A stretch of 64,000 nucleotides of DNA from Micromonospora sp. NBC_01813. GTDB taxonomy: Bacteria; Actinomycetota; Actinomycetes; Mycobacteriales; Micromonosporaceae. Positions 39,966 through 60,715 of the stretch are shown here, one piece after another; the first letter of the stretch is position 1; the number at the start of each line of letters is the position of its first letter. The position numbers and the translations under genes were made by a program. Where the stretch lies: NCBI RefSeq assembly GCF_035917335.1, contig NZ_CP109067.1, positions 5,827,001 through 5,891,000 of the forward strand, in the 5' to 3' direction. The notes below the pieces were generated by a model that worked only from the letters and a program-made list of their open reading frames with translations, was not told where the DNA came from and made no database searches.

Positions 39966-41006
39966 TCACCCCGCTTCGGTGAGGTCGTCCAGTAGTCCGC
40001 GCTGCCGCGCGAGCACTCCGGCCTGAAACCGGCTCTCGGCACCCAGGTCGTGCATGATCTCGGCGATGTGCCGTCGGCAGGTGCGCACCGAGATGCTCAA
40101 CTTGCGCGCGATGTACTCGTCTTTGCGACCGGCGGCCAGCAGATGCAGCAGGGCCCGTTTGAGGTCGTCGCCGGCCACTCCGTAGCCACCGTTCGGCGTG
40201 GCCTCGTCATCGAAGGGCAGCGCCGAGGCCCAGATCTGCTCCAGCGAGCGGTAGAGGTAGTCGACCACGGAAGGCTCCCGCAGCACGACCGCACCGCTGG
40301 CGAGCATGTTCGGAATGACCGCGGTCTCGCGGTCGAAGATGATTATCCGGTCGATGACCTCTTCTCGGGTGCGCACCTCGCAGCCGGCATCGACGAGCTC
40401 TTTGAGGAAATGGCGCATCCGCGGATGGACCCGCACCGGATGTTGGTGGACTGTTCTTATTCGAATCCCGCGTTGCAGCATCTCGAGGTCCTTCGGCAGG
40501 GACTCCTCGATGGCGCGGTCCGACAGCACTCCCGGGTGTGCGCTGAAGACCTCGACGGAGCATCGTCGGGCTATCCCGGCGAGGGTGACGCGTACCCGGT
40601 CGACCTCGTCGACGATGTCGATGGCCTCCCGCTGGTTCCGGGCGTGGCGGGTGTTGAAGTAGATGGGGTTGAAGGCCGACAGGGTCGCCTCGAGGGTCTC
40701 CATGCGACGCTGGCGCTGGCGTACCTCGAACTCCAGGGGGGCGATGAGTTCCGCGACGGCCGACTCCGGACTGCTCGGCACCAGCACGTCGGGCTCTTCG
40801 GGTGCGTGCCGTAGCAGCCGCAGGTTCAGCAACGAGGCCAGGGCTTCGGCGAGCTCCTCGGCGGACTGTCCAAGGGCGGCTGTCGCGTCCGCCAACGCTT
40901 CGCGGGACACCTGTCCCCGGCGCAGAATCCATTGGTAGAGATTGGCCGCTTCGGCAGTGATTGTGCCCTCTGGTCGGTTGCCCTGTTGGTGGTCCTGCGC
41001 ACTCAC
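39966..41006 (-). CDS. LuxR-type helix-turn-helix regulator (TrmB-like N-terminus), cluster-associated
   Basis: This 346-residue regulator begins with a TrmB/MarR-like winged helix (NLYQWILRRGQVSREALADATAALG, about 22-46). A coiled linker (EVRQRQRRMETLEATL) and a phospholipase-D-like effector region (IDRIIIFDRETAVIPN) come next. It ends in a LuxR-type helix-turn-helix (RKDEYIARKLSISVRTCRRHIAEIM). Proteins of this type are frequent pathway regulators next to thiopeptide, lanthipeptide and other RiPP clusters in actinomycetes. It is divergent from the M20 gene and the cluster core, and likely controls that shared 234-bp region. Confidence 0.85.
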   Translation of the reverse strand: MSAQDHQQGNRPEGTITAEAANLYQWILRRGQVSREALADATAALGQSAEELAEALASLLNLRLLRHAPEEPDVLVPSSPESAVAELIAPLEFEVRQRQRRMETLEATLSAFNPIYFNTRHARNQREAIDIVDEVDRVRVTLAGIARRCSVEVFSAHPGVLSDRAIEESLPKDLEMLQRGIRIRTVHQHPVRVHPRMRHFLKELVDAGCEVRTREEVIDRIIIFDRETAVIPNMLASGAVVLREPSVVDYLYRSLEQIWASALPFDDEATPNGGYGVAGDDLKRALLHLLAAGRKDEYIARKLSISVRTCRRHIAEIMHDLGAESRFQAGVLARQRGLLDDLTEAG

Positions 41007-41240
41007 CGGGTCACCTCATCACCCTGACTGACAGCTCAGCGCAACGAAATGCCCGAAAAGCACCAGTCGCCATGCGGTGACACAGGACCCGACCGACCGA
41101 TGTGTTTCCACGCACCCCCGATGCCCTGACTCACGTAGGGAGATCTTAGCCGTACGGGAAGGGCTGCGGTTGCGTTCCATCGGCGGCTTCTGGGGAAATG
41201 GCCAGCCAATTCGAGTTTAGTGCATAAAAAGGACTTCTGG
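41007..41240. promoter_or_regulatory. Divergent control region at the cluster's left end
   Basis: This 234-bp stretch separates the LuxR-type regulator from the M20 hydrolase and must contain promoters for both directions. AAAAAGGA (41226-41233) is the ribosome binding site of the plus-strand gene. No operator was clearly recognised. Confidence 0.45.
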
Positions 41241-42503
41241 ATGAAATCAGTCCCTGAGATCGCGTCCGACGTGCGCACGGTCCTGCGGGAGGCGGCCGCC
41301 TTCTATATCGATATACATGCCCATCCTGAGCTATCGGGCGCCGAAGCGCGCACAGCGGACAAGCTCGCCGGGCGACTGCGCCGCGACGGATTCCAGGTGT
41401 CCTCGAAGGTCGGCGGCCACGGCGTCGTCGGAGTCCTGCGCAACGGCCCCGGCCCGACCGTCCTGCTCCGCGCCGAACTCGACGCGCTGCCGGTCGAGGA
41501 GGAGACCGGCCTGCCGTACGCGAGCCGTCAGGTGGCGACCAGCGCCGGCGGGCGGACGGTGCCGGTGATGCATGCCTGCGGGCATGACCTGCACCTCGCC
41601 TGCCTGGCCGGGGCCGCCGCCCAACTGGCTGCCGACCGCGAGCAGTGGAGCGGGACCCTCGCCGTCGTCGGGCAACCGGCGGAGGAGACCCTGGAGGGGG
41701 CGCACGCCATGCTGGCGGCGGGCCTGTACGACCGGACCGGACGACCCGACGTCGTCCTCGCCCAGCACACCGCCCCCTTCCCGGCGGGCATGCTGGCGTA
41801 CGCCGCCGGACCGGTGCTGGCCGGCAGTGTGTCCCTTGAGGTCACGATCCTCGGCCGGGGCGGCCACGCGGCGACCCCGCACCTCACCGTCGACCCGGTG
41901 GTCATCGCCGCGGCCGTCGTGCTCCGCCTGCAGACGGTCGTGTCCCGAGAGGTCGACCCGGCCGAACAGGTGGTGCTCACCGTCGGCTCGCTGCGGGCCG
42001 GCGAGACCGGCAACGTCATCCCCGGTGAAGCCGTCATCGGTCTGACGGTGCGCGCGTACGCCACCGCCACCCTGGACCGCGTCGTCGCCGCGGTCACCCG
42101 CATCGTCCGAGCCGAGTGCGCTGCGTCCGGCGCGGATCGTGACCCGCGAATCCGGGTGGTCTCCTCCTCGCCGGTGAACCTGCCGACGGCCGAGGCGACC
42201 GCCGTGGTGCGCGCGGCGCACGAGACCCACTTCGGCGCCGCGCGGATCGCCTCCTGGCCCCCCGCCATGGCCACCGAGGACTTCCCGCTCTTCGGTGACG
42301 CGGGCATCGACGTACACGGCCAGCCCGGCATATCGACGGTCTACTGGCTGCTGGGCGTGGCAAGCCCTCGTCAGTGGTCGACGGCCGCGACGGTCCCGGT
42401 GCCCGCCAACCACTCTTCCGCATTCGCCCCGCATGTGGCACTGGCCCTGCCGACCGGCATCTCGGCGATGACGCTCGCCGCGCTCGCCCACCTGCAGCGG
42501 TGA
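41241..42503 (+). CDS. M20-family amidohydrolase/peptidase, cluster-associated
   Basis: This 420-residue enzyme resembles M20D amidohydrolases (hippurate hydrolase/IAA-amino-acid hydrolase group): HAHPELSGAE, the metal-binding MHACGHDLHLA, PAEETLEGA, GRGGHAATPH and AMATEDFPLF. The family hydrolyses N-acyl or small peptide bonds with a two-metal centre. Within this cluster it could trim leader fragments or remove a blocking group, but it might also be a neighbour with separate duty. ATG 41241 is chosen because AAAAAGGA lies 7 nt before it. Confidence 0.85.
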   Translation: MKSVPEIASDVRTVLREAAAFYIDIHAHPELSGAEARTADKLAGRLRRDGFQVSSKVGGHGVVGVLRNGPGPTVLLRAELDALPVEEETGLPYASRQVATSAGGRTVPVMHACGHDLHLACLAGAAAQLAADREQWSGTLAVVGQPAEETLEGAHAMLAAGLYDRTGRPDVVLAQHTAPFPAGMLAYAAGPVLAGSVSLEVTILGRGGHAATPHLTVDPVVIAAAVVLRLQTVVSREVDPAEQVVLTVGSLRAGETGNVIPGEAVIGLTVRAYATATLDRVVAAVTRIVRAECAASGADRDPRIRVVSSSPVNLPTAEATAVVRAAHETHFGAARIASWPPAMATEDFPLFGDAGIDVHGQPGISTVYWLLGVASPRQWSTAATVPVPANHSSAFAPHVALALPTGISAMTLAALAHLQR

Positions 42504-42679
42504 CCGCGGATGAAAGCTGCCATGCAGCTTCTTGCCGCCGGGTCACTTCTTGACCCTACCAATGGGCATTGACAGACTTTACGACAAGCGCCATCGAGCG
42601 AAGTGCTAATCCCCAAAAGGGGAGCACGATCGAAATCAACCCGCATGAGTCGTCGTCACATAATGGGGGGAGAAACGGT
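42504..42679. promoter_or_regulatory. Intergenic region before the SARP gene
   Basis: This 176-bp gap is moderately A/T-rich and includes the GGGGGGAG ribosome binding site (42665-42672) of the regulator. A promoter for the regulatory gene is expected here. Nothing else was recognised. Confidence 0.4.
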
Positions 42680-44479
42680 GTGTCTCTGTTGAGCTCGACC
42701 CATTCCCGTCGCATGAGTTTTCAGATCCTCGGCACCCTCAACCTGACCAACGGGCGCGATGTCGCGGTGCTCCCGCCGGCCAAGCCGACCATCCTGCTGG
42801 CCGCCCTGCTGCTGCACCCCAACACGGTGGTGTCGGTCGACTCGCTCCTTGGCGCGATCTGGGGCGAGCAGCAGCCGGCATCGGCCAAGGCCGCGCTGCA
42901 GACCTGCGTGCTTCGCCTGCGGCGGCTCTTCGCCAAGCACGGCATCGCCGGCAACGCGATCGAATCCGTCCCGGGCGGCTACCGCGTCGTCGCGGACGCC
43001 GAGACCCTCGACCTGCTGCGGTTCCGCCGGCTGATCCGCCGGGCCGGGCAGGAAACGGATCCCGAGTCCGAGCTGCACAGCCTGACCGAGGGCCTGGGGC
43101 TGTGGCGCGGCGCGCTGCTGGCCAACGTGCCGTCCGACGTGCTGTGCCGCGACGAGGTGCCCCGGCTCACCGAGGAGTGGTTGCGGGCCAGCGAACGGGT
43201 GCACGACCTCAAGTTGCTGCTCGGCCGTTGCCGGGAGGTGCTGCCCGACCTGTGGCGGACCGCCCGCTCGTACCCGGGGCACGAGCGATTCGCGGAGCAG
43301 CTCATCGAGGCGCTGTACCGCACCGGCCGGCAGACCGAGGCGCTGATCGAGTACCGCAACGTCAAGCAGTACCTCCTGGCCGAGCTGGGCCTGGACCCAG
43401 GCCCGTCGCTGCAACGACTGGAGGTCGCGATCCTGCGCGGTGACGAGCTGACGCCCGGCGGCGCGGCCGGCGACGGCCCGGTCGTCACCGGTCACGCGGC
43501 CCGCACGGCGGGGACACCGCCGCTGACGGCGTCCCCGCCGATGGCGACGAGCGACTTCACCGGCCGGGCGGCGGATGTCACCCTGCTGACCAGGTGGCTC
43601 GGCGACGACCGGCCCGGCCCCCGCACGATCGTGCTGACCGGCGCGCCGGGCATCGGCAAGACGGCGCTGGCGCTGCACGTCGCCGACCAACTCCGGGCCA
43701 GGTTCGCCGCAGGCCGCGCCACGCTGCGGATGCGCCGACCCGACGGTACGCCGCGAACACCGGCGGAGCTGACCGCCGAGCTGGTGCGGCTGCGGGTCGC
43801 CGGGGCGCAGGACCCGGCGCTGCTGATTCTCGACGACGTGCTCGACGCCGAGCAGATCCGCGGCCTCCTGCCGGTCGAGGCCGGCCGCCGCGTGCTCATC
43901 ACCAGCCGGATGAGCCTCACCGGGCTGGTGGCGACGCACGGCGGCCGGGTTCACCGGCTGGACCCGTTCACCGACGACGAGGCCGTCGAGCTCCTCACGG
44001 TCCTGCTGGGACCGGACCGGGCGGCGACCGAACCCGACGCGGTACGCCAACTGGCGGCACTGTGCGGCAACTTCCCACTGGCGCTGCGGATCATGGCGGC
44101 CCAGTTGCAGGTGCGCCCACGGACCCGGATCGCCGACTGCGTCACGTGGCTGCGGGGCGACCGGTTCGCCCGGATGTCCCTCATCGACGACCCACGGATG
44201 TCGATCACCGGGACCTTCGGGGCCTGGCTCGACGAACTCGATCCCCGGCTCAGCGACGCGCTGGTACGGATCGCCCGTTGCGCGTACCAGGAGTCGATGA
44301 GCCTCGCCGACCTTGCCGGCGTCCTCGACCGGCCCGTTCCCGCCGCCGGCCAGATCCTCGAACTGCTGGCCGACGCCGGTGCCCTCGAAGGCGGTTCCGG
44401 CACCTACACGATGCACGAACTGGTCCGGGCCTTCGCCGTCGACGGCTACGGCGAACGGAGCACCGCGCTAGCGGTGTGA
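42680..44479 (+). CDS. SARP-type (BTAD) transcriptional activator with NB-ARC domain
   Basis: This 599-residue protein has an N-terminal OmpR-like winged helix (SFQILGTLNLTNG..., about residues 14-100). A BTAD region (RFAEQLIEALYRTGRQTEALIEYRNVKQYLLAELGLDPGPSLQRLE) follows, with an NB-ARC-type NTPase: P-loop GAPGIGKTALAL near 320 and ALLILDDVLD. Large SARPs of the AfsR type activate antibiotic clusters, making this the probable pathway activator. GTG 42680 is preferred because GGGGGGAG lies 7 nt before it; a longer frame from 42569 is possible. Confidence 0.9.
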   Translation: MSLLSSTHSRRMSFQILGTLNLTNGRDVAVLPPAKPTILLAALLLHPNTVVSVDSLLGAIWGEQQPASAKAALQTCVLRLRRLFAKHGIAGNAIESVPGGYRVVADAETLDLLRFRRLIRRAGQETDPESELHSLTEGLGLWRGALLANVPSDVLCRDEVPRLTEEWLRASERVHDLKLLLGRCREVLPDLWRTARSYPGHERFAEQLIEALYRTGRQTEALIEYRNVKQYLLAELGLDPGPSLQRLEVAILRGDELTPGGAAGDGPVVTGHAARTAGTPPLTASPPMATSDFTGRAADVTLLTRWLGDDRPGPRTIVLTGAPGIGKTALALHVADQLRARFAAGRATLRMRRPDGTPRTPAELTAELVRLRVAGAQDPALLILDDVLDAEQIRGLLPVEAGRRVLITSRMSLTGLVATHGGRVHRLDPFTDDEAVELLTVLLGPDRAATEPDAVRQLAALCGNFPLALRIMAAQLQVRPRTRIADCVTWLRGDRFARMSLIDDPRMSITGTFGAWLDELDPRLSDALVRIARCAYQESMSLADLAGVLDRPVPAAGQILELLADAGALEGGSGTYTMHELVRAFAVDGYGERSTALAV

Positions 44480-44543
44480 CCGCCGGTCCATCTCTTCCCC
44501 GACCCGACACGTCGCCACCGACAAGAAACAGAGGTGCTTCGCC

Positions 44544-46724
44544 ATGGCCGCAGCGACCTTCGACGACATCGCCCAGACCCGGCCCCGGGTTCGCCGGGAC
44601 GTCCTCTACACCCAGACGCCGGACGGCGTGCTGTTCCACAACTCCCTCGGCGGCTTCCACCTCAACGGCCGCAGCGCGTACCGGCTGGCCACCCTGATCG
44701 TGCCCTACCTCAACGGCGACCACCGGGTCGCGGACCTCGGCGCCGCCCTCGGCGCCGAGCAGCGGACCATGGTCGCCGACCTGGTCGGCACGCTGTACGA
44801 GTGTGGCTTCGCCCGCGACGAACCGCCGGCCACCCCGACCACCGACGACGCGGCGTCGGCGGTCACCGCACGGTTCGCGCCGCAGATCGCGTACGTCGAC
44901 CACTACGTCGGCGGCGCGGCCGACCGGTTCACGACCTTCCGCGACGCCCGGGTGGCGGTCCTCGGCGACGACCTGGTGGCGCGCTGGTGCGTCCTGAGCC
45001 TGGTGCGCAACGGCTCGGCGGGCATCGGCATCGCGCCGGGCCTGGACCACCCCGACAACCAGTTCGCCGAGGTACGGGCCGAGGCGCGGGCACTGACCGA
45101 CGAGGGCTGCCCGGTCGACATCGAGGTCGTCGCGGCCACCGGCACCCGTTACACCTGGGAGCAGCTCGCGGCGTACGACGTGGTCGTCGTAACCGGCGGG
45201 TCCGCCGCCGCCCGGCAGACGCTGGACCTGCTGAGCGAACGGGTGCCGGCCGGGCGGCAGTTGCTGACCGCGTGGACCTTCGGCCGGCGCGCCGTGATCG
45301 GGCCGCACATGACGGCCGGCAGCACCGGCTGCTGGCTCTGCGCCGCGCTGCGGCTGGCCGCCAACGGTGACCCGGCGGCCGCCGCCGACCTGTGGCAGGG
45401 CATGTCCCTTCCCACGGCCCGCCCGGGTGCCGCCGTCGGTCGGCCGCTCGCCGCGATGATCGGGAACCTGCTCGGGTACGAGGTGTTCCGGGCGCTGACC
45501 GGCGTCCTGCCGGCGGAGACCAGCGGCAACGTGATCATCCAGGACCTCGAGTCGCTCGACGTGGTCACCGAGCCGTTGCTGCCGCACCCGGCGTGCGAGT
45601 TCTGCTCCGGCGACACGGTGCTCGACGAGCCGGTCACCACGGACCTCGCCATCCCGGACACCCGGGTCGTCGAGGCACAGGTCGAGGCATCGGAGCTGCT
45701 GGCCGAACTGACCGGCCGGGCGGTGCTGATCCAGCCCAACGTCGGCGTCTTCGCCGAGTTCACCGACGAGCAGTGGACCCAGACCCCGCTGAAGGTGAGC
45801 ACCCTGCGGTTCTCGCCCGGCCCCGGGCGTACCCGGGAGGTGGCGACCTTCGACCTGCACACCCTGGCCGGCGCCCGGCTCGCCGCCCTGCGTACGGCCG
45901 CAGTCAGCTACGTCGACCACGGTGTCCCGCTGCCGGCGGCGCCGGCCGCACCGACCCGGTCGGTGTCGGTCGCGCAGATCGTCACCTGCAGCGGCACGGT
46001 GCCCGCGACCGGGCCGGTGGTGACGGCGACGTCGCTGCTGACGAAGGAGGAGTTCGCCGTGCCGGCCGCCGCGGTCCGGCCGTTCGGCGAACACAACGCC
46101 GACCGGCCGGTCATCGCCACGTCGGCCGGTGCCGGGGCGGGGACGTCGCCCGCCGAGGCCGCCGCGCGCGGCCTGCTGTCGGCGCTGGCGTACACCCGGA
46201 TCATCGACGCGGTCCGGGGTCGCGCCGAGGTGGCGCCGGTACGGCTGGCCGACGCCGACCACCCGGAGATCGTCTTCCTGCGCCGGTCGGCGGCGAACGC
46301 CGGGGTGGAGGTCACCGTGCTGGACCTGCGCGGCGGCCGGTTCGGCACGTCGCCGGTGGCGATCGCCTACGCGACCGACCCACGGACCGGCGGCGTCGTC
46401 TGGTCGGCCGGCAGCGAGCTCACCTGGAACGCCGCCGTGGTGGCCGCCGTGCGGGACCTGCTCGGCCGGGTGCAGTTGGGCCGGGAACGCGGCGCCGACG
46501 TGGACCTCGGCGACGAACTCGTCGCCGACTTCGACCCGGCCGTGCTCGCGGTGACCGACGCCCCGGCCGAGGCACCGGACGTGACCTGGGACGACGTGCT
46601 CGACGGGGTCCGTGCCGCGGGCGGTGACGTGCTGCTGATCCGGACCACCCCGGCCGACCTGCTCGCCGGCGGTATCCACACGGCCCGGATCGTGCTGACG
46701 GGCGGTTCGCCCGATGCCGCTTGA
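44544..46724 (+). CDS. ThiF-like cyclodehydratase partner (leader-binding C-protein)
   Basis: This 726-residue protein starts with a PqqD/RRE-like module (LYTQTPDGVLFHNSLGGFHLNGRSAYRLATLIVPYL-type opening) expected to bind the precursor leader. An E1/ThiF-like domain follows, with two zinc-ribbon pairs (Cys263/Cys266 in GCWLC, Cys351/Cys354 in ACEFC). The C-terminal third resembles a degenerate YcaO scaffold (AGAGAGTSPAEAAARGLLSAL). This is the ocin-ThiF/TOMM C-protein layout that presents the peptide to a YcaO. The 3' end overlaps YcaO-1 by 11 bp, so the pair is co-translated. ATG 44544 follows a GAGGTG-type site. Confidence 0.88.
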   Translation: MAAATFDDIAQTRPRVRRDVLYTQTPDGVLFHNSLGGFHLNGRSAYRLATLIVPYLNGDHRVADLGAALGAEQRTMVADLVGTLYECGFARDEPPATPTTDDAASAVTARFAPQIAYVDHYVGGAADRFTTFRDARVAVLGDDLVARWCVLSLVRNGSAGIGIAPGLDHPDNQFAEVRAEARALTDEGCPVDIEVVAATGTRYTWEQLAAYDVVVVTGGSAAARQTLDLLSERVPAGRQLLTAWTFGRRAVIGPHMTAGSTGCWLCAALRLAANGDPAAAADLWQGMSLPTARPGAAVGRPLAAMIGNLLGYEVFRALTGVLPAETSGNVIIQDLESLDVVTEPLLPHPACEFCSGDTVLDEPVTTDLAIPDTRVVEAQVEASELLAELTGRAVLIQPNVGVFAEFTDEQWTQTPLKVSTLRFSPGPGRTREVATFDLHTLAGARLAALRTAAVSYVDHGVPLPAAPAAPTRSVSVAQIVTCSGTVPATGPVVTATSLLTKEEFAVPAAAVRPFGEHNADRPVIATSAGAGAGTSPAEAAARGLLSALAYTRIIDAVRGRAEVAPVRLADADHPEIVFLRRSAANAGVEVTVLDLRGGRFGTSPVAIAYATDPRTGGVVWSAGSELTWNAAVVAAVRDLLGRVQLGRERGADVDLGDELVADFDPAVLAVTDAPAEAPDVTWDDVLDGVRAAGGDVLLIRTTPADLLAGGIHTARIVLTGGSPDAA

Positions 46725-48666: not shown

Positions 48667-48702
48667 GTGCGTGAGGCACCACCCGAGCAGAAAAGGACCG
48701 AC

Positions 48703-50292
48703 ATGGGTTACGCATACGACTACGCGACCGCCATCATGCACCGCGGTCGGGTCATGATGGAGCCGATCGACTTCGTCCCGAACTGGCCCGACCAGCCACG
48801 CAAGGGCAAGTACTTTCCCGGCGTCGAGACCTTTCCGCTGTCCGACGGCAGCCCACCCGGCGACGCCACCGTCCAGGACGGACTGAAAGGGCTGGCCGGC
48901 GCGGGACAAGCTGCCGCGCTCCCGTTCGACCTGCCGTTTCTCGCCTCGATGCTGCAGGATTCGTACGGGCTGGTCGGCCGCCGCCTCGGCGTCCAGGCCA
49001 ACACCGACCTGCGTGCGTTGCCGACGTACGCGACGGCGAACTGGAACCGGGGCACCGCGTCCGGCGGCGGCCTCTACCCGGTCGGCGTCTACTGGATCTG
49101 CGGGCCGAGCGGCCCGATGCCGCCGGGCGTCTACTACTACTCGACGAAGCACCACGCGATGCAGCGCCTGCTGACCGGCGACGTGACGTCGGTCGTCCGG
49201 GCGGCGCTCGGCGACCGCGCGGGCCAGGACACCGACCAGTTCCTCGTGCTCGGCGTCAAGTACTGGCAGAACGCGTTCAAGTACAACAGCTTCTCGTTCC
49301 ACGCGGTCACGATGGACGTCGGCACGATCGTGCAGACCTGGCGGCTGTGGGCCGGCGCCCGTGGCCGGGTGGTGGAGCCGGAGCTCTGGTTCGACGAGCC
49401 ACGGATCGCCGACCTGCTCGGCGTGCCCAACGACCAGGAAGGCATCTTCGCCGTCGTCCCACTCGCCTGGGACTCGGCGCGCGGGTCCGGCGGCGTACCG
49501 GCGCGGGTGTCGGTCCGACACCGCGACCAGGAACGGTCGCGGACCGTGCTGACCTTCGACACGATGACGAAGATCCACGCCGGGACGGTCGAGGGGGCGA
49601 GGACCGCCCCCGCCGCCGGGCAGCTGGCGGACGCCGCCGCCCACCCGCCGCAGCCAGGCCGCGCGCGGGTCGAGCTGCCGCCCCCACTCACCCTCGATGC
49701 TCCGGTACGCGCCGCGCTGCGCCGCCGACGCAGCAGCTTCGGCCGGTTCGCGGCGAAGGTGCCGCTGACCGCCGACCAGCTCGGCACGGCGTTGGCGGCC
49801 AGCGCCCGGGCACCCTTCTCCGACGCGGCGAGCGGCGCCGGAGCGGTCCGGCTGACGAAGCTCTACGCCTTCGTCAACCACGTCGACGGCGTGCCACCGG
49901 GCGCGTACGAGTACGACCCGGCCGGGCACGCCCTGTACCTGGTCAAGGCGGGTCCGCCCGGACTGTTCCTGCAGCGCAACTACTTCCTGGCCAACTACAA
50001 CCTGGAGCAGGCGGGCGTCGTGATCGTGCCGACCGTCCGGACGACCGCAGTGCTCGACGCCGTCGGTGACCGGGGCTACCGCCTGGTCAACGCCACGATC
50101 GGCGCTGTCTCGCAGAACTTCTACACCGCCGCGGCGGCCCTGGACGTTGGTGCCGGCGTGGCCCTGGGCTTCGACAACATCTCGTTCATCGAGGAGCTCG
50201 ACCTCGCCGCCACCGGCGAGGCCCCGCTGCTGATCATGCTGCTCGGCCACGAGCGGGCCCGGCCCGCGGACTTCCGCTATGACATCGCCTGA
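48703..50292 (+). CDS. SagB-type FMN azoline dehydrogenase, two-lobed
   Basis: This 529-residue protein contains two nitroreductase-like halves. The first has PTYATANWNRGTASGGGLYPV, VYYYSTKHHAMQRL and FSFHAVTMDVGTIVQTWRL. The second has RRRRSSFGRFAAKVPLTADQL, FVNHVDGVPPGAYEYD and NATIGAVSQNFYTAAAALDVGAGVALGF. Such SagB/McbC-type enzymes use FMN to oxidise azolines to azoles. ATG 48703 follows AAAAGGA; the gap to YcaO-1 is 36 bp. One lobe may be catalytic and the other structural, though this cannot be decided by eye. Confidence 0.88.
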   Translation: MGYAYDYATAIMHRGRVMMEPIDFVPNWPDQPRKGKYFPGVETFPLSDGSPPGDATVQDGLKGLAGAGQAAALPFDLPFLASMLQDSYGLVGRRLGVQANTDLRALPTYATANWNRGTASGGGLYPVGVYWICGPSGPMPPGVYYYSTKHHAMQRLLTGDVTSVVRAALGDRAGQDTDQFLVLGVKYWQNAFKYNSFSFHAVTMDVGTIVQTWRLWAGARGRVVEPELWFDEPRIADLLGVPNDQEGIFAVVPLAWDSARGSGGVPARVSVRHRDQERSRTVLTFDTMTKIHAGTVEGARTAPAAGQLADAAAHPPQPGRARVELPPPLTLDAPVRAALRRRRSSFGRFAAKVPLTADQLGTALAASARAPFSDAASGAGAVRLTKLYAFVNHVDGVPPGAYEYDPAGHALYLVKAGPPGLFLQRNYFLANYNLEQAGVVIVPTVRTTAVLDAVGDRGYRLVNATIGAVSQNFYTAAAALDVGAGVALGFDNISFIEELDLAATGEAPLLIMLLGHERARPADFRYDIA

Positions 50293-50317
50293 TCAATCGA
50301 CTCGAACGGAGTCCGTC

Positions 50318-53179: not shown

Positions 53180-54240
53180 CCCGTACCCTGATCGAGCCGG
53201 CACCGGCGGCGGACCTGGCCGCCGGCGACTGGCAGGCCATCCACATCTACTACGCGGCCAACCCGCAGCCGCTGCTCGTGCAGTGCGTGCAGCCGCTGAT
53301 CGCCGGGCTACGGGCCGACGGGCTGCTCGCGGGCCACTTCTTCATCAACTACTGGCTGGAGGGTCCGCACGTCCGGCTGCGGCTCAAGCCGGCGACGGTC
53401 GCTGCCACCGCCGAGGTGAAACGGCGGGCGGAGGCGGCCATCACCGAGTACCTGCGGGTCCGGCCGGCGCTGTATCACGTGGACGCCGGGTTCCTGGAGG
53501 ACTTCTACAACTCCCTGTTCGACATGGAGTTCTCCGCCGACGAGAAGTCCGACTACCTGCGTGGCGACGGCCGGATGAACCTGCGCGAGAACAACACCTA
53601 CAGCTACGAGCCGTACGAGCCGGAGTACGGCAAGTACGGCGGCGAGGCCGGGATCGAGCTGGCCGAGTGGCACTTCGCGCACTCGAGCGAGATGGTCGTC
53701 GACGCCATCCGCCGCAAGAACCTGCACCTGCGTACCGTGCTGCTCGGCACGTCGGCGCAGCTGATGATGGTGATGTCGGCCTGTTTCCTGCCGGCCACCG
53801 ACGACCTGGTCGACTACCTGGACCGCTACCACAAGTTCTGGCGCAGCGCGTTCCCGGACACCAACTACGCCGGCGACGCGGAATACCAGAAGCAGTACGC
53901 CGCGACCGGTGCCGACATCGGCCGGCGGTTCGCCGAGATCCGGCACTCGTTGCGGAGCACCGGCGGCCAGGACCTGCCGGGGCTGCTGCGCGGCTGGGCC
54001 GCGCACTGCCTGGAGTTGCGCGACCGGGCGGCCGGGTTGGCCGAACGCGGTCAGCTGGTGTTCCGCTCCTGGGACGGCCAGCGGGACGAGATCCCGACGG
54101 ATCCGCAGGTGGCGCTGCCGGTGCTGCTGTCGCCGTACATGCACATGACCAACAACCGGCTGCACGTCACCATCACCGACGAGGCGTACCTGGCGTACAT
54201 GCTGGGCCGGGCGCTGCGCGAACACGGCGAGGAGTCATGA
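53176..54240 (+). CDS. LanB C-terminal-type protein (elimination or related domain)
   Basis: This 354-residue protein opens with WQAIHIYYAANPQPLLVQCV, continues through FFINYWLEGPHVRLRLKP and ends in LLSPYMHMTNNRLHVTITDEA. That is the SpaB_C/thiopeptide-type bacteriocin pattern. In split systems this domain either eliminates glutamate to leave dehydroalanine or dehydrobutyrine, or, in a diverged form, makes the thiopeptide pyridine ring. As the only such protein visible here, elimination is the simplest role. Its ATG overlaps the upstream stop by 4 bp and its stop overlaps the next start. Confidence 0.88.
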   Translation: MTRTLIEPAPAADLAAGDWQAIHIYYAANPQPLLVQCVQPLIAGLRADGLLAGHFFINYWLEGPHVRLRLKPATVAATAEVKRRAEAAITEYLRVRPALYHVDAGFLEDFYNSLFDMEFSADEKSDYLRGDGRMNLRENNTYSYEPYEPEYGKYGGEAGIELAEWHFAHSSEMVVDAIRRKNLHLRTVLLGTSAQLMMVMSACFLPATDDLVDYLDRYHKFWRSAFPDTNYAGDAEYQKQYAATGADIGRRFAEIRHSLRSTGGQDLPGLLRGWAAHCLELRDRAAGLAERGQLVFRSWDGQRDEIPTDPQVALPVLLSPYMHMTNNRLHVTITDEAYLAYMLGRALREHGEES

Positions 54241-55520
54241 CCACCGCCGTCACCGCTGCCGATTCTGTGGCCGCCGTCGTCGTCGGGCCGGCGCGGCGGG
54301 CCGACCTGCAGATCAGCGGGCGATACCTGAGCGATGACACTCCGGTGCACCTCGTCCGGGATCCCGTCACCGACAGGTCCTTCGAGATCGGGGTGAAGGA
54401 ACACTTCGTACTCACCCGGCTCGACGGGACGACGTCACGCGAGGAGATCGCCGTCGCGTACGGCCGCAGGTTCGGTCGGATGCTCGGCCCGGCGGCCTGG
54501 CAGCAGCTGCTCGGGCTGCTGGCCGCCCGGGGTCTGCTCGAAGGGGGCCCGGCCCCGGCGGCCGAGCCACCGGCGGCGGGCCGGCGCAAACTCTTCGGCG
54601 GCTCGATCCGGCTGTTCAGTGACGCCGCGGCCACCACGGGCCGGCTGCACCGGTTCTTCGGGTTCATGTTCCATGGCTGGTTCCTCGTGCCGGCGTTCGT
54701 GGCGATCGGGCTGATGCTGGCCGGCGTGGTGTGGCAGTGGCCGGCCCTGGCCGCCGACACCGCCACGGTGTACGCCAACCCGGTCGCGCTGGCGGCGGTC
54801 GCCACCGCGCTGTGGGTCACCATGGGCCTGCACGAACTCGGGCATGGCGTCGTGGCCCACCGCTTCGGCGGTACGGTCGGCGAGATCGGGATCCGCTGGC
54901 AGTTGCCGATGGTCGTCACGTACTGCCGGGTCGACGACTACCTGTTCCTGCGGACCCGCCGCCAGCAGGTGGCGACCGCGTCGGCCGGCATCGTGGTGAA
55001 CCTGCTGTTGCTGCTGCCGGTGCTGCCGCTCTGGCTGTTGCTGCCGGAGCGGGAGCCGACCCGGGCGCTGCTCGGTGCGTTGATGCTGCTGGGGCTGGCC
55101 CAGGCCGCGTTGTTCCTGCTGCCGCTGCCGCCGTTGGACGGCTACAAGATGCTCGCCTACTCGCTGGGCATGCTGCGCTACGCGGACGGCAGCCGGCGCT
55201 TCGCCGGCCGGGCGTTGGCCGCGTTGTTCGGTCGCGGTCCGGGCCTGGCGGGATACCCCCGGTCGGCCAGGATCGCCTATTCCGGCTACGCGTTGGGGGC
55301 GGCCGCCCTGATCGTGGGCATCGTGACGGTCGTCGCCGTGATCGCGCACCGTGTTGCCAGCGCCCACTTCGGGCCGGTCGCCGGGGCGGTCTCGGCCGGA
55401 CTGGCCGTACTGATCGGGGTGGCTTTCCTGCTGCCCCGCAAGCCGTTCGCGTCGCCCGGTAAGCCCGACGCGTCGCCCCGCAAGCCGGCCGGCGGCCGGA
55501 GAGGAGAGGTCCAACCATGA
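54237..55520 (+). CDS. M50-like membrane metalloprotease with PqqD/RRE-like N-terminus
   Basis: This 427-residue protein begins with a PqqD-like module (VHLVRDPVTDRSFEIGVKEH, LTRLDGTTSREEIAVAYGRRFG). Several transmembrane helices follow with an HELGH zinc motif (His199-His203) and an LDG motif with Asp301 (PLPPLDGYKM). This is the layout of peptide zinc metalloproteases associated with RiPP clusters. It could remove the leader and/or couple it to export. The ATG overlaps the upstream stop (ATGA). A longer frame from 52770 exists but only shadows the LanB gene. Confidence 0.85.
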   Translation: MTTAVTAADSVAAVVVGPARRADLQISGRYLSDDTPVHLVRDPVTDRSFEIGVKEHFVLTRLDGTTSREEIAVAYGRRFGRMLGPAAWQQLLGLLAARGLLEGGPAPAAEPPAAGRRKLFGGSIRLFSDAAATTGRLHRFFGFMFHGWFLVPAFVAIGLMLAGVVWQWPALAADTATVYANPVALAAVATALWVTMGLHELGHGVVAHRFGGTVGEIGIRWQLPMVVTYCRVDDYLFLRTRRQQVATASAGIVVNLLLLLPVLPLWLLLPEREPTRALLGALMLLGLAQAALFLLPLPPLDGYKMLAYSLGMLRYADGSRRFAGRALAALFGRGPGLAGYPRSARIAYSGYALGAAALIVGIVTVVAVIAHRVASAHFGPVAGAVSAGLAVLIGVAFLLPRKPFASPGKPDASPRKPAGGRRGEVQP

Positions 55521-56506
55521 CCGTCACGCATGACATCGGAGCTTCGACGTCGAGCAGCGAACACACCGTCGCGGCGGCGGGGGGCGAGTCGGCCGCCGAA
55601 CCGGCTGTCGAGTCGGCCGTCGTGCTGGCCGGCGTCCGCAAGCGGTACGGCGACGTGCAGGCCGTCGACGGCATCTCGCTCACCATCCGGCGCGGCGAGT
55701 TCTTCGGCATCCTCGGCCCCAACGGCGCCGGCAAGACGACCCTGATCGAGATCGTGGAGGGCCTGCGTCAGGCGGACGCCGGCACGATCCAGGTGCTCGG
55801 GATGTCCCCGTGGCCCCGCAACGTGGCACTGCTGCCCCGTCTCGGGTTGCAGACGCAGAAGAGCGCGTTCTTCGCCCGGTTGACGGCCCGCGAGCACCTT
55901 GAGACGGTCGCCGCCCTGTACGGACTGCCGGCCACGGCGGCCGGCCCCGCGTTGGAACTGGTCGGGCTGACCGGGCAGGCGGACAAGCGGGTCGGGGAGC
56001 TCTCCGGCGGTCAGCGGCAGCGGCTCGCCATCGCCGGCGCGCTCATCCACGAGCCGGAGCTCGTCTTCCTCGACGAACCCACTGCGGCACTCGACACGCA
56101 GGCCCGCCGCGACCTGTGGCAGGTGCTGCGCAGCCTGAAGGCGCAGGGCCGAACGATCATCTACACCACCCACCATCTCGACGAGGCCGAGGCGCTCTGT
56201 GACCGCGTGGCCATCGTGGTCGCCGGCTCCGTCATCGCGCTCGACACCCCGCACCGGCTCGTCGGCGCGGCGCGGGTGCCCACCCGGGTCATGGTGCCGG
56301 TCGGCCGGATCTCCATTGCACAGGCCGAGGCCCTTCCCGGCGTCGGCCGGGTCACCGTCGAAGGAGGCTCCGTGGTGCTGGAGACCACGACGGCCGGTGC
56401 CACCCTGGCCGCCGTCGGCGAGCTCATCGGACTCGACGAGGTGCAGACCCGGACCGCCACCCTCGAGGACGTCTACCTGGAACTCACTGGATCGGAGACG
56501 CACTGA
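55517..56506 (+). CDS. ABC exporter ATP-binding protein
   Basis: This 329-residue ABC ATPase has Walker A GPNGAGKTT (residues 67-75), signature LSGGQRQRLAIAGAL, Walker B LVFLDEPTAALD and switch His in YTTHHLDEAE, typical of the DrrA/ABC-2 export type. It pairs with the permease whose start overlaps its stop. The cluster location makes it the likely exporter and self-protection pump for the mature peptide. An Ala/Ser-rich N-terminal 35 residues precede the domain. Confidence 0.93.
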   Translation: MTVTHDIGASTSSSEHTVAAAGGESAAEPAVESAVVLAGVRKRYGDVQAVDGISLTIRRGEFFGILGPNGAGKTTLIEIVEGLRQADAGTIQVLGMSPWPRNVALLPRLGLQTQKSAFFARLTAREHLETVAALYGLPATAAGPALELVGLTGQADKRVGELSGGQRQRLAIAGALIHEPELVFLDEPTAALDTQARRDLWQVLRSLKAQGRTIIYTTHHLDEAEALCDRVAIVVAGSVIALDTPHRLVGAARVPTRVMVPVGRISIAQAEALPGVGRVTVEGGSVVLETTTAGATLAAVGELIGLDEVQTRTATLEDVYLELTGSETH

Positions 56507-57261
56507 TGAGTGCATTCGCCGCGTTGAGCACGGCCAACTACAAGGCATCGGTACGCGACAAGACCACTGTGTTCTTCACGTTCGCCTTCCCGTTGATCTT
56601 CCTGGTGGTCTTCGGTCTGATCTTCCGCGACCAGGAGGTGGCCGGCTCCGGGCGCAGCTACATCGACTACATCGCGCCCGGCGTGCTCTCCTGGGGCGTC
56701 GGCAACGCCGCCCTGTTCGGCATCGCGTTCACCCTCATGCAGTGGCGCAACGACGACATCCTGCGGCTGATCCGGATGTCGCCCACCCCGCTGACCACGG
56801 TGCTCGGCTCTCGGTACACCGGCGCGCTGGTGATCGGCCTGGTGCAGGCGGTGCTGTTCGTCGGCGTAGCCCTGCTGCCGGTGTTCGGCCTCACTCTCGC
56901 CGCCAGCTGGCCGCTCGCCCTACCCGTACTGCTGCTCGGTGTCACGGCGTTCCTGTCCATGGGCGTCGTCGTCGGGTCGTACGCCAACACCCCGGAGGCC
57001 GTCGCCGCCATCGCCAACTCGATCATGGTGCCGATGGCGTTCCTGTCGGGTTCCTTCCTGCCGATCGACCTGATGCCGTCGTGGCTGCAGAACATCTCCC
57101 GGGCCCTGCCGCTGCGCTACATGAACGACGGCATCTCGACCGGGTTGACCGGCAGCGGTGACCTCGCCACCATCGGCCTGGCCGGCGCCGCCCTGGCCGG
57201 GTTCACCGTCGTCTTCGGCCTCGTCGCGGTGAAGACCTTCCGCTGGAGCAACGACTCGTGA
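56506..57261 (+). CDS. ABC-2 type exporter permease
   Basis: This 251-residue ABC-2 permease has about six transmembrane helices (FFTFAFPLIFLVVFGLIF, VLGSRYTGALVIGLVQAVLFVG, LLLGVTAFLSMGVVVGSYANT, SIMVPMAFLSGSFLPIDLMP) and ends FRWSNDS. It forms the transmembrane half of the exporter with the ATPase just upstream (start overlaps by one base). The following YcaO-2 start overlaps its stop (GTGA), so all are one transcript. Confidence 0.93.
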   Translation: MSAFAALSTANYKASVRDKTTVFFTFAFPLIFLVVFGLIFRDQEVAGSGRSYIDYIAPGVLSWGVGNAALFGIAFTLMQWRNDDILRLIRMSPTPLTTVLGSRYTGALVIGLVQAVLFVGVALLPVFGLTLAASWPLALPVLLLGVTAFLSMGVVVGSYANTPEAVAAIANSIMVPMAFLSGSFLPIDLMPSWLQNISRALPLRYMNDGISTGLTGSGDLATIGLAGAALAGFTVVFGLVAVKTFRWSNDS

Positions 57262-59237
57262 GCACGACGACGACGGCGCGGGCCGACACCGGCCGGGTCC
57301 CGCTGGAGTTCGGCCGGGCGGCCCTGCAGGCGGCGCTCACCGACCGGTTCCGGCGCGACGTCGGGAACGCTGCGCACACCGCCGGCCCGGTGGTGGCGAC
57401 CGTCGGCGCGGTCGACGTGTTCGGTGTGCCCGCCCTGCGACTCGCGTCGGTACGCGCAGCGGCGGACGTGCACCTCACCGCCCAGGCCGTACTCATCGGC
57501 CCGTGGGGTGGCGACCCGGACGCCGAAGCCTGCGGCCAGTGCCTCGCGATGCGCTGGCAGCGGTTGCGGCACAGATCCGAACGGGAGGCCCTCGAACACG
57601 GCGGGACCGCCATCGCGGCCGGCGTCTGGCCGGTCGTCCCGGACTACGTCGTGGACGCCGTCTGGTCGGTGTACCAGGCGGCCGTCCTGCGCCGGTCGGG
57701 GGCCGTCGGCCGGCGGGTCGCCGGCGGCTGGCACGCGACGGCGGACCTCAGCCTGCCGCAGGTCACCCGGATCGACCTGGAGACACTGCACGTACTGACG
57801 TTTCCGCTGCTCACCGATCCGCTCTGCGCCAACTGCGGGCCGATCGAAGCGGCCACCCCGCAACTGGCCACCCTCGACCTGGTGTCGCGACCCAAACCGG
57901 ATCCGGACCGCTACCGGCTCACCTCGACGACGGCGTACCCGCTGGCGACCGGGGCGATGGCCAACCCGGTCTGCGGCACCCTGGGCGCCGGCACCTGGCT
58001 CGACGTCACCTCGCCCACCACCTCCCCGGTCACCGGCAGCGTCTTCATCCGTGGGTACGCCGGACTCGTCAAGTTCAGCTGGAGCGGGCAGGCCAACTCG
58101 TTCCGGACCAGCAAGGACCTGGCGTTGCTGGAAGGGCTCGAACGGTACGCCGGCACCCATCAGCGGCGCCGGACCGAGCCGGTCGTCGCCGCGTACACCG
58201 ATCTCGGTGACACCGCGCTCGACCCGCGCAGCTGCGGGGAGTACTCGGCGCAGACCTACCGGACCGATCCGATGGTCGAGCCGTTCGCCCCGGACCGGCC
58301 GATCCCGTGGGTGTGGGGGTACTCCCTGCGCGACGACCGACCCGTGTTGGTCCCGGCCCGCCTCACCTACTACGCCTCCGGGCAGGCCGCCGACAACTTC
58401 GTCTACGAATCCTCCAACGGCTGCGCGATCGGCAGCTGCCTGGAGGAGGCGATCCTCTTCGGCCTGCTCGAACTCATCGAGCGCGACGCGTTCCTGCTCG
58501 CCTGGTACGGCAACGCCGAGCTCACCGAGATCGACCTGGACTCGTGCCGCAGCCCAGCGGTCCGGGCCATGGTGGACCGGGCCGCGTTCCGTGGCTACGA
58601 CGTCCACGCCTTCGACACCCGCGTCGACCTGGCCGTGCCGGTCGTTACCGGCCTGGCAGTCCGCCGCGACGGCGGCGCGGGCACGCTGTCCTTCGCGGCC
58701 GGTGCCAGCCTCGATCCGGAGACGGCGGTCGAAGGCGCGTTGTCGGAGGTGCTCACCTACATTCCGCACCTGTCCCGGCAGGTCGACGAGCGCCGCGACG
58801 AGCTCGAAGCCATGGCGGACGACTACACCCGCTGCGCCAACCTGGGCGACCACCCTCAACTGTTCGGTCTGCCCCGGATGGCCGAGCATGCCCGCTCCTA
58901 CCTGGAGCCGGCCGGTCGCTGCCAGATCCAGGACATTCGCCGCCCGGGCGACCCGGACTCCCGCGACCTCCTGCTCGACCTGCGTACCTGCCAGGGCGAA
59001 CTGGAACGGGCCGGCTTCGACGTGATCGTGGTCGACCAGACGACTGCGGAACAGCGCCGGATGGGTCTGCGCACGGTGTCCACGATCGTGCCCGGCCTGC
59101 TGCCGATCGACTTCGGCTGGACCAGGCAGCGGGCCCTGCGGATGCCGCGGCTGCGCTGGGCGGCGCGGCGGGCCGGTCGGCGTACCAGCGACCTGACCGA
59201 TGCGGACCTGCGGATGGTGCCGCACCCGTTCCCCTGA
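57258..59237 (+). CDS. YcaO-domain azoline-forming cyclodehydratase 2
   Basis: This 659-residue protein is a second complete YcaO, collinear with YcaO-1 along its length. It keeps the zinc pairs Cys92/Cys95 (CGQC) and Cys190/Cys193 (CANC), DLALLEGLERYAG, SSNGCAIGSCLEEAILFGLLELIERDAFLLAWYGN, AGASLDPETAVEGALSEV and the PHPFP tail. It may act on other residues or ring positions than YcaO-1, or share the ThiF partner. GTG 57258 overlaps the permease stop. A 25-bp hairpin follows. Confidence 0.92.
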   Translation: MSTTTTARADTGRVPLEFGRAALQAALTDRFRRDVGNAAHTAGPVVATVGAVDVFGVPALRLASVRAAADVHLTAQAVLIGPWGGDPDAEACGQCLAMRWQRLRHRSEREALEHGGTAIAAGVWPVVPDYVVDAVWSVYQAAVLRRSGAVGRRVAGGWHATADLSLPQVTRIDLETLHVLTFPLLTDPLCANCGPIEAATPQLATLDLVSRPKPDPDRYRLTSTTAYPLATGAMANPVCGTLGAGTWLDVTSPTTSPVTGSVFIRGYAGLVKFSWSGQANSFRTSKDLALLEGLERYAGTHQRRRTEPVVAAYTDLGDTALDPRSCGEYSAQTYRTDPMVEPFAPDRPIPWVWGYSLRDDRPVLVPARLTYYASGQAADNFVYESSNGCAIGSCLEEAILFGLLELIERDAFLLAWYGNAELTEIDLDSCRSPAVRAMVDRAAFRGYDVHAFDTRVDLAVPVVTGLAVRRDGGAGTLSFAAGASLDPETAVEGALSEVLTYIPHLSRQVDERRDELEAMADDYTRCANLGDHPQLFGLPRMAEHARSYLEPAGRCQIQDIRRPGDPDSRDLLLDLRTCQGELERAGFDVIVVDQTTAEQRRMGLRTVSTIVPGLLPIDFGWTRQRALRMPRLRWAARRAGRRTSDLTDADLRMVPHPFP

Positions 59238-59243
59238 GTCGCC

Positions 59244-59301
59244 CGTACGGCCTGTGGCGCCCCACCGGTTCTTTCTCCGGTGGGGCGCCACAGGCCGTAC
59301 G
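59244..59301. terminator. Perfect 25-bp bidirectional terminator
   Basis: Arms 59244-59268 and 59277-59301 pair perfectly over 25 bp around the loop TTCTTTCT. It lies 6 bp after the YcaO-2 stop and 13 bp before the convergent precursor gene ends, so it serves both transcripts. Confidence 0.9.
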
Positions 59302-59314
59302 CGGATCGGGCGGA

Positions 59315-59512
59315 TCAGGCGGAGCAGGAGGTGGTGCTGGTGGTGCTGGAGCAGGTGCTGGTGGAGCTGGTGCTGCAGGAGGCGGCCACGGCCAGCAGCA
59401 CGCCGTTCGCGTCCGCGTAGTCCGAGATCTCGAAGGTCTCCGACTCGAGTTCGAGGATCTCGTTCGCGAGGTCCGCGAGGTCCGCCAGGCCGGTCTGGTT
59501 GTCGATGTTCAT
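59315..59512 (-). CDS. Azole/dehydro RiPP precursor peptide
   Basis: This 65-residue peptide has an acidic leader of about 44 residues (MNIDNQTGLADLADLANEIL, then a Glu/Asp/Ser-rich stretch, then GVLLAVAA). A 21-residue core follows: 10 Ser, 7 Thr, 3 Cys (core positions 2, 10 and 19) and one final Ala. The core starts Ser-Cys, as many thiopeptide cores do. The leader/core boundary after VAA is inferred. Almost every core residue can be cyclised or dehydrated. ATG 59512 has a GAGGAG site at ideal spacing; upstream in-frame codons are Arg/Gly-rich and ignored. It is the evident substrate of the cluster enzymes. Confidence 0.9.
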   Translation of the reverse strand: MNIDNQTGLADLADLANEILELESETFEISDYADANGVLLAVAASCSTSSTSTCSSTTSTTSCSA

Positions 59513-59647
59513 GGTGACTCCTCTTCGCTGTCCGGGCCGCTGGTCTGCGGTCCGGCCGGTTCTTGCTGACAGGACCATTCCATCGGGTGCCGGTAGCCGA
59601 TCTACCTACGTTCCGCTGTCACATCGCTGGCAGCACAGGTCACCGGT
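59513..59647 (-). promoter_or_regulatory. Upstream region of the precursor gene
   Basis: These 135 bp lie between the 355-residue gene and the precursor on the same strand. They contain the precursor's ribosome binding site (GAGGAG) and room for a separate, stronger promoter, as often seen for RiPP precursor genes. No specific element was proven. Confidence 0.45.
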
Positions 59648-60715
59648 TCAGCCGAGCCAGACCGGTCCCCAGGCCAGGTCGTGGCGGCCGAGCAGCGCGT
59701 CGGCGGCGACCCGTACCCCCAGCACCCGCCGGCCGGTGCGGCCGGCGACGACGGCGTGGACGTCGTGCAGCAGACGCCGGACGTCGTCCGGGGACAGGGC
59801 GCGGATCAGCGAGGCGGTCTCCGGCGGGCTCGGGAAGGCCGCGCGGGCAGCCTCGGGAAGCAGGAGGTCCCGGGTCCGGGCGGCGGTGACGGCGTAGTCG
59901 ATCGCCTCGTCGGTCTGCCGGCCCCAGGCGGCCGCGACGACGGCACTGGACGACCGGCGTACGACGACGGCGAGCCGCAGCGGCCCGCTGAACTGCGGGA
60001 TGTGCCGGGTGACGACGTCGAGGTCGGTGTCGGGCAGGGGATGCCGTTGCGGGTCCCGGCTGTACGCGGTCAGCAGGGTGAGCGCGCCGTCGAGTAGCCA
60101 CGTCCATTCCGTCGCACCCGAGGCGCCGGCGACCACCCGACCGACGGCCGGAACCGCGTTCGAGGACATCGACCGCAGGCTGTTCAGCATCGCGTGCCGC
60201 AGCGCCAGGTCACGTCGGGTTTCCCAGCCCAGCCCACTGTGGGGCAGCGCGGGGTCGGACGTGCGCACCGCGGCTGCGCAGAATGGCATCGAGTCGTGTG
60301 CCGCCAGCGGTTCGGGCGCGAGTAGCCCGGCCCACGGTGCCAGTATCGCCAGGGCGTCACCACCTGGTTCCGGGGCCTCCGCCGGCATCAGTTCGAGATC
60401 CGTCAGGCTTCGGATTCCGGTCCATCGGGTCCGGCCGTCACCGAGCAGCGCGAGGAGCGTCGTGACGCGATGCTCGGGGTCCACGACGGCGGCGATGCTG
60501 GTGTCGGCCCCGTTCACGGACCGGACGGCGTCGCGCACCGCGGCCTCGACCGACCCGGTGGACCACGGTTCGCCGCTCGCCGATCCGGTCGGGATTCGAG
60601 CCTGTCGCCAGAGCGCGGTCCGTTCGGTCAGCAGATCGTGCAGCTGCGGGTTGTCTAATCGCGGTCCGACGACGATCAATCCCGCGATGGGGGTGACCGG
60701 TACGTCCTCAGTCAT
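59648..60715 (-). CDS. Putative solitary degenerate YcaO-like domain protein
   Basis: This 355-residue protein is not a confident match to any named family. Its pattern follows the C-terminal third of the cluster's ThiF-like C-protein: GLGWETRRDLALRHAMLNSL versus AGAGTSPAEAAARGLLSAL, then SAVVAAAWGRQTDEAIDYAV, and RRVLGVRVAADALLGRHDLA versus VLLIRTTPADLLAGGIHTA. That suggests a free-standing, catalytically dead YcaO-like module that could help bind or position the precursor. It is on the precursor's strand, 135 bp upstream. The start ATG 60715 is uncertain; 60730 is possible. Confidence 0.6.
   Translation of the reverse strand: MTEDVPVTPIAGLIVVGPRLDNPQLHDLLTERTALWRQARIPTGSASGEPWSTGSVEAAVRDAVRSVNGADTSIAAVVDPEHRVTTLLALLGDGRTRWTGIRSLTDLELMPAEAPEPGGDALAILAPWAGLLAPEPLAAHDSMPFCAAAVRTSDPALPHSGLGWETRRDLALRHAMLNSLRSMSSNAVPAVGRVVAGASGATEWTWLLDGALTLLTAYSRDPQRHPLPDTDLDVVTRHIPQFSGPLRLAVVVRRSSSAVVAAAWGRQTDEAIDYAVTAARTRDLLLPEAARAAFPSPPETASLIRALSPDDVRRLLHDVHAVVAGRTGRRVLGVRVAADALLGRHDLAWGPVWLG

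Follow-up and report, generated by a model that had tools for sequence, protein, structure and literature searches.

The stretch of 64,000 nucleotides from Micromonospora sp. NBC_01813 that was analysed (contig NZ_CP109067.1, positions 5,827,001 to 5,891,000; hereafter the window) carries an intact cluster for a ribosomally synthesized and post-translationally modified peptide (RiPP) of the azole/dehydroamino-acid type, with 14 contiguous genes at 39966-60715 whose frames are all open. It is probably a goadsporin-like cluster that makes a linear peptide bearing both azoles and dehydroalanines. A preliminary description of this DNA had considered the cluster apparently complete, which holds, as every needed enzyme is intact; likewise, the two full YcaO proteins, SagB dehydrogenase, split LanB, ABC exporter and SARP and LuxR regulators that it had named were recovered at their positions when the 14 gene products were scanned with Pfam and NCBIfam against curated cut-offs.

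The precursor gene (59315..59512, minus strand) encodes 65 residues and ends in the 21-residue core SCSTSSTSTCSSTTSTTSCSA, in which 20 of 21 residues are Ser, Thr or Cys. Its earlier identification is borne out by a match to TIGR03892 (41.4 bits, cut-off 25), the sole one at E ≤ 0.001 in the whole 7.63-Mb genome, and by its tail, which is the richest in Ser/Thr/Cys (20 of the last 25 residues; 13 for the runner-up) among those small open reading frames of the window whose tails contain two or more Cys. For comparison, GTDB species genomes were scanned with a five-sequence LanB-N alignment, and the best 80 of 200 relatives by LanB-N similarity were kept. Precursor homologues are present in 65 of these 80 loci, and the cores of 73 precursors from 67 sources (the 65 loci, locus L024 and the window) were compared, leaving out the ten precursors of L025 and L027, which form a more divergent branch. 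The last 17 core positions are 93.7% identical as residues and 64.1% identical as codons, and 31.6% of the residue-identical codon pairs use different codons; core positions 1-4 are more variable (73% identity). Aligned leader and core are 0.86 and 0.90 identical outside Micromonospora, and 0.78 and 0.89 between Micromonospora and the rest. Among the 73 precursors, Cys, Thr and Ser interchange at core positions 2, 4, 10 and 20, and Thr and Cys at 14; Ser 8, 11, 15 and 18 are invariant, and Ser 12 and 5 tolerate Ala. This pattern fits a conversion of the first set to azoles and of the fixed Ser to dehydroalanine, making the exchanging positions the putative heterocycles and the fixed Ser the putative dehydration sites, a division on which the fixed Thr do not decide. 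The leader carries LESETF, an Lx4F motif that recurs in 80 of 83 precursors, the other three, all from L025, having Ile for Leu. According to passages of PMC12710340, Lx4F is the sequence recognized by a group of RiPP recognition elements (RREs) of actinomycete thiopeptides. The divergent Micromonosporaceae relatives hold arrays of seven (L027:5137-7016) and three (L025:7014-7789) precursor genes whose Ser/Thr/Cys-rich cores are diverse, whereas in the window's branch there is mostly a single core, and it hardly varies.

Four proteins would serve azole formation. The first, at 44544..46724 on the plus strand, had been called a ThiF-like C-protein; the protein itself stands, but F protein is the better label, the C domains being fused to the YcaO proteins. 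It consists of an RRE, an ocin-ThiF/E1-like part and a degenerate YcaO part (TIGR03693 70.7 bits, below 561.9; TIGR03882 59.5, cut-off 36.9; PF02624 48.3 at the C-terminus). A profile of 19 F-protein homologues matches the PbtF RRE (8t19) at the N-terminus with E 5e-7, and TruD and LynD in the middle; at the C-terminus it gives weak matches to two YcaO proteins (E 0.006 and 0.04). YcaO-A (46714..48666, plus) and YcaO-B (57258..59237, plus) are both fused C-YcaO cyclodehydratases with a PHPFP end, and both pass TIGR03604 (302 and 345 bits, cut-off 219) and TIGR03882 (90.8 and 81.9 bits); YcaO-A also matches LynD with 116 bits. Both families, with 75 sequences each, retain the LEGxER, SNGCA...EA...ERD and PHPFP motifs; the F-protein tail, in 63 sequences, has lost these, the ATP-site motifs included. 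SagB (48667..50292, plus), an FMN azoline dehydrogenase by family, passes TIGR03605 (143.4 bits, cut-off 78.4). At L023:6632-8826 in genome G007, the F protein lies on two overlapping frames, an RRE-ThiF part and a YcaO-tail part, either as split genes or by a frameshift.

The dehydratase is split. LanB-N (50279..53179, plus), the glutamylation half, passes PF04738 (148.6 bits) and matches two structures in the PDB, namely 6ec7 (131.6 bits), which we take to be TbtB, and 9jhq (54.3 bits), entitled 'Goadsporin biosynthetic protein'. LanB-C (53176..54240, plus), the putative glutamate-elimination half, passes PF14028 (150.2 bits), and the two Arg of HxRLR, Lys-Tyr-Gly-Gly and His-Met-Thr-Asn-Asn-Arg are invariant in all 79 LanB-C sequences, the window's included. 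Alignment to MibB and NisB indicated that the equivalents of NisB R784, R786 and H961 are kept; these residues, together with R826, presumably act in glutamate elimination.

For the membrane protease at 54237..55520 (plus; M50, site-2-type, HExxH; PF02163 34.1 bits, cut-off 27.2), an N-terminal RRE had been proposed. The Pfam scan gives no match in this region; an AlphaFold model from 32 sequences (mean predicted local distance difference test score, pLDDT, 88) places three strands and then three helices at 25-97, which suggests an RRE-like N-terminus in beta3-alpha3 order and agrees with the proposal. A Foldseek search with this model returned the TbiB1 RRE (5v1v; probability 0.98, TM-score 0.70 on the target, E 0.74) as well as SpoIVFB and the Methanocaldococcus jannaschii site-2 protease, with no match at E ≤ 0.001.

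Goadsporin (god cluster) of Streptomyces sp. TP-A0584 is described in passages of PMC5303826 as having YcaO-formed azoles, a dehydrogenase, a split LanB (GodF/GodG) giving dehydroalanine, and a 19-residue core. The same combination of YcaO azole enzymes, dehydrogenase and split LanB recurs here; unlike in goadsporin, there are two YcaO proteins and a separate F protein whose YcaO tail is dead. As predicted from the genes, domains, motifs, frames and core conservation read in the sequence, the steps, their order, the sites, the cleavage and the export would be as follows. The F protein would bind the leader through its RRE (Lx4F, LESETF) and present the core to the two fused cyclodehydratases, which would close Cys and Thr, and some Ser, into azolines that SagB would oxidize to azoles. 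After azole formation LanB-N would glutamylate chosen Ser from Glu-tRNA, and LanB-C would eliminate the glutamate to leave dehydroalanine. The RRE-M50 protease would then remove the leader near AVAA/SCST at the membrane, the M20 hydrolase may trim the peptide, and a DrrAB-type exporter would ship the product, with SARP and LuxR controlling expression of the cluster.

Several observations weigh against this interpretation. Thr 13 and 17 of the core are also invariant among the 73 precursors, and for this reason invariance alone does not pick out Ser. Nei-Gojobori pN/pS (proportions of nonsynonymous to synonymous differences) is 0.83 for the core and 0.49 for the leader, which reads against selection on the core; as two substitutions separate the Ser codon blocks TCN and AGY, these counts were set aside, and residue-versus-codon identity was used in their place for core conservation. 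Goadsporin has a GNAT acetyltransferase, a family that the scans of the 14 genes do not list, which is why we call the cluster goadsporin-like and not goadsporin; the peptidase-bearing ABC transporter, a goadsporin hallmark, is absent as well, with the RRE-M50 protease here in contrast to it. Other points favour a thiopeptide, in which LanB-C or a pyridine synthase in trans would join Ser1 with a later Ser (e.g. Ser11 after Cys10) to form a macrocycle. The model passed by the precursor is named for thiazolylpeptide (thiopeptide), and the core starts with Ser1-Cys2. The pyridine-synthase model (TbtD/PbtD, NF045556) is the second NCBIfam match of LanB-C, level with the first (88.8 vs 89.4 bits), its best PDB match is the pyridine synthase TbtD (35 bits), and Lys stands at the R826 equivalent. 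Moreover, the native genome holds further NF045556 matches at 162 and 39 bits, and the TbtD-like gene behind the former could act in trans. Against a thiopeptide stands that the 88.8 bits of LanB-C fall far below the 325 required by NF045556, as do the 78-97 bits of the cluster LanB-C proteins in nine cluster-bearing genomes. In seven of the nine, the cluster's own LanB-C is the sole match at E ≤ 0.001, leaving no candidate partner in trans. Only Streptomyces varsoviensis passes the cut-off (430 bits), in a separate thiopeptide-like cluster that served as a control: its pyridine synthase reads HVRVLV where the putative eliminase reads HVRLRV, with Leu at R786, and has Tyr in place of the C-terminal His of the eliminase. 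As a further point against our interpretation, this putative eliminase is without the Lys/Arg-Tyr-Gly-Gly motif; because of this and of the Lys at R826, the residue test depends on R786 and H961. Against a thiopeptide, in turn, Ser1 is replaced by Cys in eight of the 73 precursors. This test with its control made a thiopeptide less likely; since LanB-C keeps the eliminase residues that the true pyridine synthase has lost and fails the pyridine-synthase cut-off, a linear azole/dehydroalanine peptide is the likelier product, and we consider a thiopeptide quite unlikely.

Two further explanations concern the YcaO pair and the state of the cluster. The two YcaO proteins may differ in chemistry, one forming azolines and the other a thioamide, an amidine or another backbone change; thioamide- and amidine-forming YcaO enzymes exist, as reported in passages of PMC8442711, and two divergent copies are maintained in the family. 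As each of them passes the cyclodehydratase model, has its C domain fused and keeps the PHPFP end, and no TfuA is found among the cluster's family matches, this division of labour appears unlikely. That the cluster is silent or decayed and functionless in this genome is highly improbable, as frames are open throughout, G+C content at third codon positions is 0.82-0.95 in 11 of 14 genes (those computed on their own frame), protein identity to the Micromonospora chokoriensis cluster is 79-92% across the cluster genes, and core residues are kept while codons change. As to other RiPP classes, the general scans of the 14 genes list no LanC (class I lanthipeptides), DUF4135 (dehydrazoles) or TfuA (thioamitides), nor a P450 or methyltransferase.

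The linear, goadsporin-like reading was also compared with other published systems. Passages of PMC10634744 describe two cyclodehydratases, SulC and SulD, for sulfomycin, and those of PMC6306032 a YcaO protein split into GenG1/GenG2, a split LanB, a putative pyridine-forming enzyme, a P450 and a C-terminal amide-forming enzyme for geninthiocin B. Both are 35-membered thiopeptides, and the latter three geninthiocin B enzymes have no counterpart here. Coryneazolisins of Corynebacterium, as described in part of PMC4603692, come from clusters in which two YcaO proteins accompany LanB-like dehydratases, a [4+2] enzyme is missing and the precursors are almost invariant. In this description they resemble the present cluster on all four counts; in coryneazolisins, however, one YcaO is discrete and one fused to the C protein, and the core contains Ile, whereas here both YcaO proteins are fused. 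Two YcaO proteins, part of the combination that the preliminary description could not match to classic clusters, thus have precedents in sulfomycin and the coryneazolisins, and geninthiocin B has a split pair. Dehydrazoles such as carnazolamide combine azoles and dehydroalanine on one peptide, with Ser preceding azoles dehydrated (passages of PMC10676384); they differ in LanM-type DUF4135 dehydration and an NHLP leader, compared with LanB and a short leader here. Finally, in the micrococcin system TclI/TclJ/TclN an ocin-ThiF-like scaffold presents the leader both to a dehydrogenase and to a C-YcaO fusion protein (passages of PMC10634744). This F-protein logic is shared, but here two cyclodehydratases go with one F protein, the YcaO tail is long and dead, and there is no pyridine synthase.

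No published description or named product of the cluster was found in the literature searched, which left out most subscription journals, and the available passages of PMC7136475 and PMC7470986 do not describe it; the thiopeptide group of PMC4603692 may include it without a name. The earlier suggestion that the product may be new is therefore upheld as far as a name is concerned, although the cluster is not peculiar to this locus. By antiSMASH, such loci would presumably be labelled LAP (linear azol(in)e-containing peptide)/thiopeptide.

Of the best 80 loci, 60 span at least 20 kb, and gene content was counted in these. The full set of nine core genes plus the precursor is present in 59 of them, the exception being L055, which lacks a precursor and a permease match above 60 bits and in which YcaO-B is not placed separately. 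Since YcaO-A and YcaO-B cross-match, their counts are not independent; separate placement finds both in the other 59 loci. SARP is matched in 60 of 60 loci, M20 in 59, LuxR (above 60 bits) in 27 and the accessory protein X355 in two, a third X355 locus, L037, being shorter than 20 kb. The make-up of the cluster is unusual, as had been proposed, in that its gene content matches neither goadsporin nor a thiopeptide, but it is not peculiar to this locus, as the same set recurs in nearly all long related loci. A search for further genes conserved across the loci yielded mostly antisense open reading frames. LanB-N is 51-59% identical to that of the window over the Streptomyces loci. A LanB-C relative at E ≤ 1e-60 was found in 68 of 392 genomes of Streptomyces (the genus of S. 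griseofuscus), about one in six, including three at 37-43% identity (one with an internal stop) and one in two pieces. In a set of 61 genomes made up of the window's own and others near it, 14 show any match; besides the window's genome, two reach 50% identity. Judged by these sequences, a cluster with a nearly unchanged core occurs in many Streptomyces as well as in Micromonosporaceae.

On the plus strand, neighbouring genes from M20 to YcaO-B overlap or lie at most 66 bases apart; the minus-strand genes are LuxR, precursor and X355. The LuxR-type regulator (39966..41006) has a C-terminal GerE helix-turn-helix (PF00196 30.2 bits, cut-off 23.5) and copies of 85 and 81% identity in the Micromonospora loci L036 and L038. 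The M20 amidohydrolase/peptidase (41220..42503; TIGR01891 244.5 bits, cut-off 153.75), absent from the earlier list of parts, belongs to the cluster and perhaps has a trimming role. It is followed by the SARP regulator with an NB-ARC ATPase domain (42569..44479; BTAD 117.7 bits, NB-ARC 41.2 bits), and downstream of the protease gene lie the genes for a DrrA-like ABC exporter ATPase (55517..56506; PF00005 102.5 bits; TIGR01188 229 bits, below the cut-off of 312) and an ABC-2 permease (56506..57261; PF01061 92.6 bits), all on the plus strand. Between the convergent YcaO-B and precursor genes, a hairpin of 25 perfect pairs (59244..59301) is likely a two-way terminator; 59238-59310 folds at -65 kcal/mol (z -10.7). 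The hairpin has no T tract and was not picked up by the intrinsic-terminator scan; the promoter/terminator scan as a whole found nothing.

The genome carries a second azole cluster, L125 (G000:C1:3140000-3156000). It looks lactazole-like, with a 586-residue eliminase-SagB fusion like LazF, a YcaO protein, a probable F protein, LanB-N, ABC genes and the TbtD-like gene of 162/325 bits. Elsewhere in the genome there are two adjacent YcaO genes (G000:C1:1948787-1951302) and one lone YcaO gene (6748050-6749051).

X355 (59648..60715, minus; 355 residues, ATG start at 60715) had been described as an extra YcaO-like protein, a label that is not upheld. Pfam and NCBIfam gave no match and no direct YcaO match was obtained, and profile alignment to YcaO-A, YcaO-B and the tail of the window's F protein gave nothing. 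BLAST against the F proteins of the window and of the second cluster likewise found no match (E 2.6 and 4.6), and a profile search of the PDB returned nothing below E 0.38. The AlphaFold model is poor (pLDDT 42), and for this reason the Foldseek search was uninformative. The C-terminal half of X355 resembles the C-terminal part of 557-residue proteins in L137 and L138 (E 1.6e-7 and 1.0e-6 per genome; 2e-5 and 3e-6 when 12 sequences were compared). In two azole clusters of Micromonosporaceae these proteins are flanked by LanB-N and YcaO, and they are called F-like by position. Full-length homologues occur in five other genomes of the 354 in the family, four at 72-82% identity, three of which match X355 of L036-L038 by identity, and one, G527, at 37%; four further matches at E < 0.001 are short or weak, two of them being those to the 557-residue proteins. 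Across the family genomes and the related loci, X355 was found only in Micromonosporaceae, whole genomes having been searched within the family only. In G527 (L136:12116-14215), the homologue is convergent with a LuxR gene whose product is 60% identical to that of the window; this genome has no YcaO at E ≤ 0.001, and the best precursor-profile match in the surroundings has E 0.038. X355 therefore need not be biosynthetic, and from this one case we would guess at a role in sensing or immunity. The X355-like protein and LuxR of G527 are a possible orphan sensing or immunity pair. The sole TTA codon of the fourteen genes is codon 20 of X355 (window 60656-60658), and TTA codons are tied to bldA control.

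The breadth of the distribution and the near-invariance of the core are the surprising features of this cluster. With LanB-C in about one in six sampled Streptomyces, a near-constant core and a product unnamed in the literature found, it is a clear target for isolation, and its core, made almost wholly of Ser, Thr and Cys and presumably processed by two cyclodehydratases with a single F protein and LanB, offers a system for asking how azole and dehydroalanine fates divide. That the core hardly varies implies that the product has a defined target or receptor. Tentatively, and as a rather unlikely possibility, the product may be a near-invariant signal or developmental factor of Streptomyces and Micromonosporaceae, not a diversifying antibiotic, with some non-producers such as G527 retaining the sensing half, LuxR and an X355-like peptide-binding protein.

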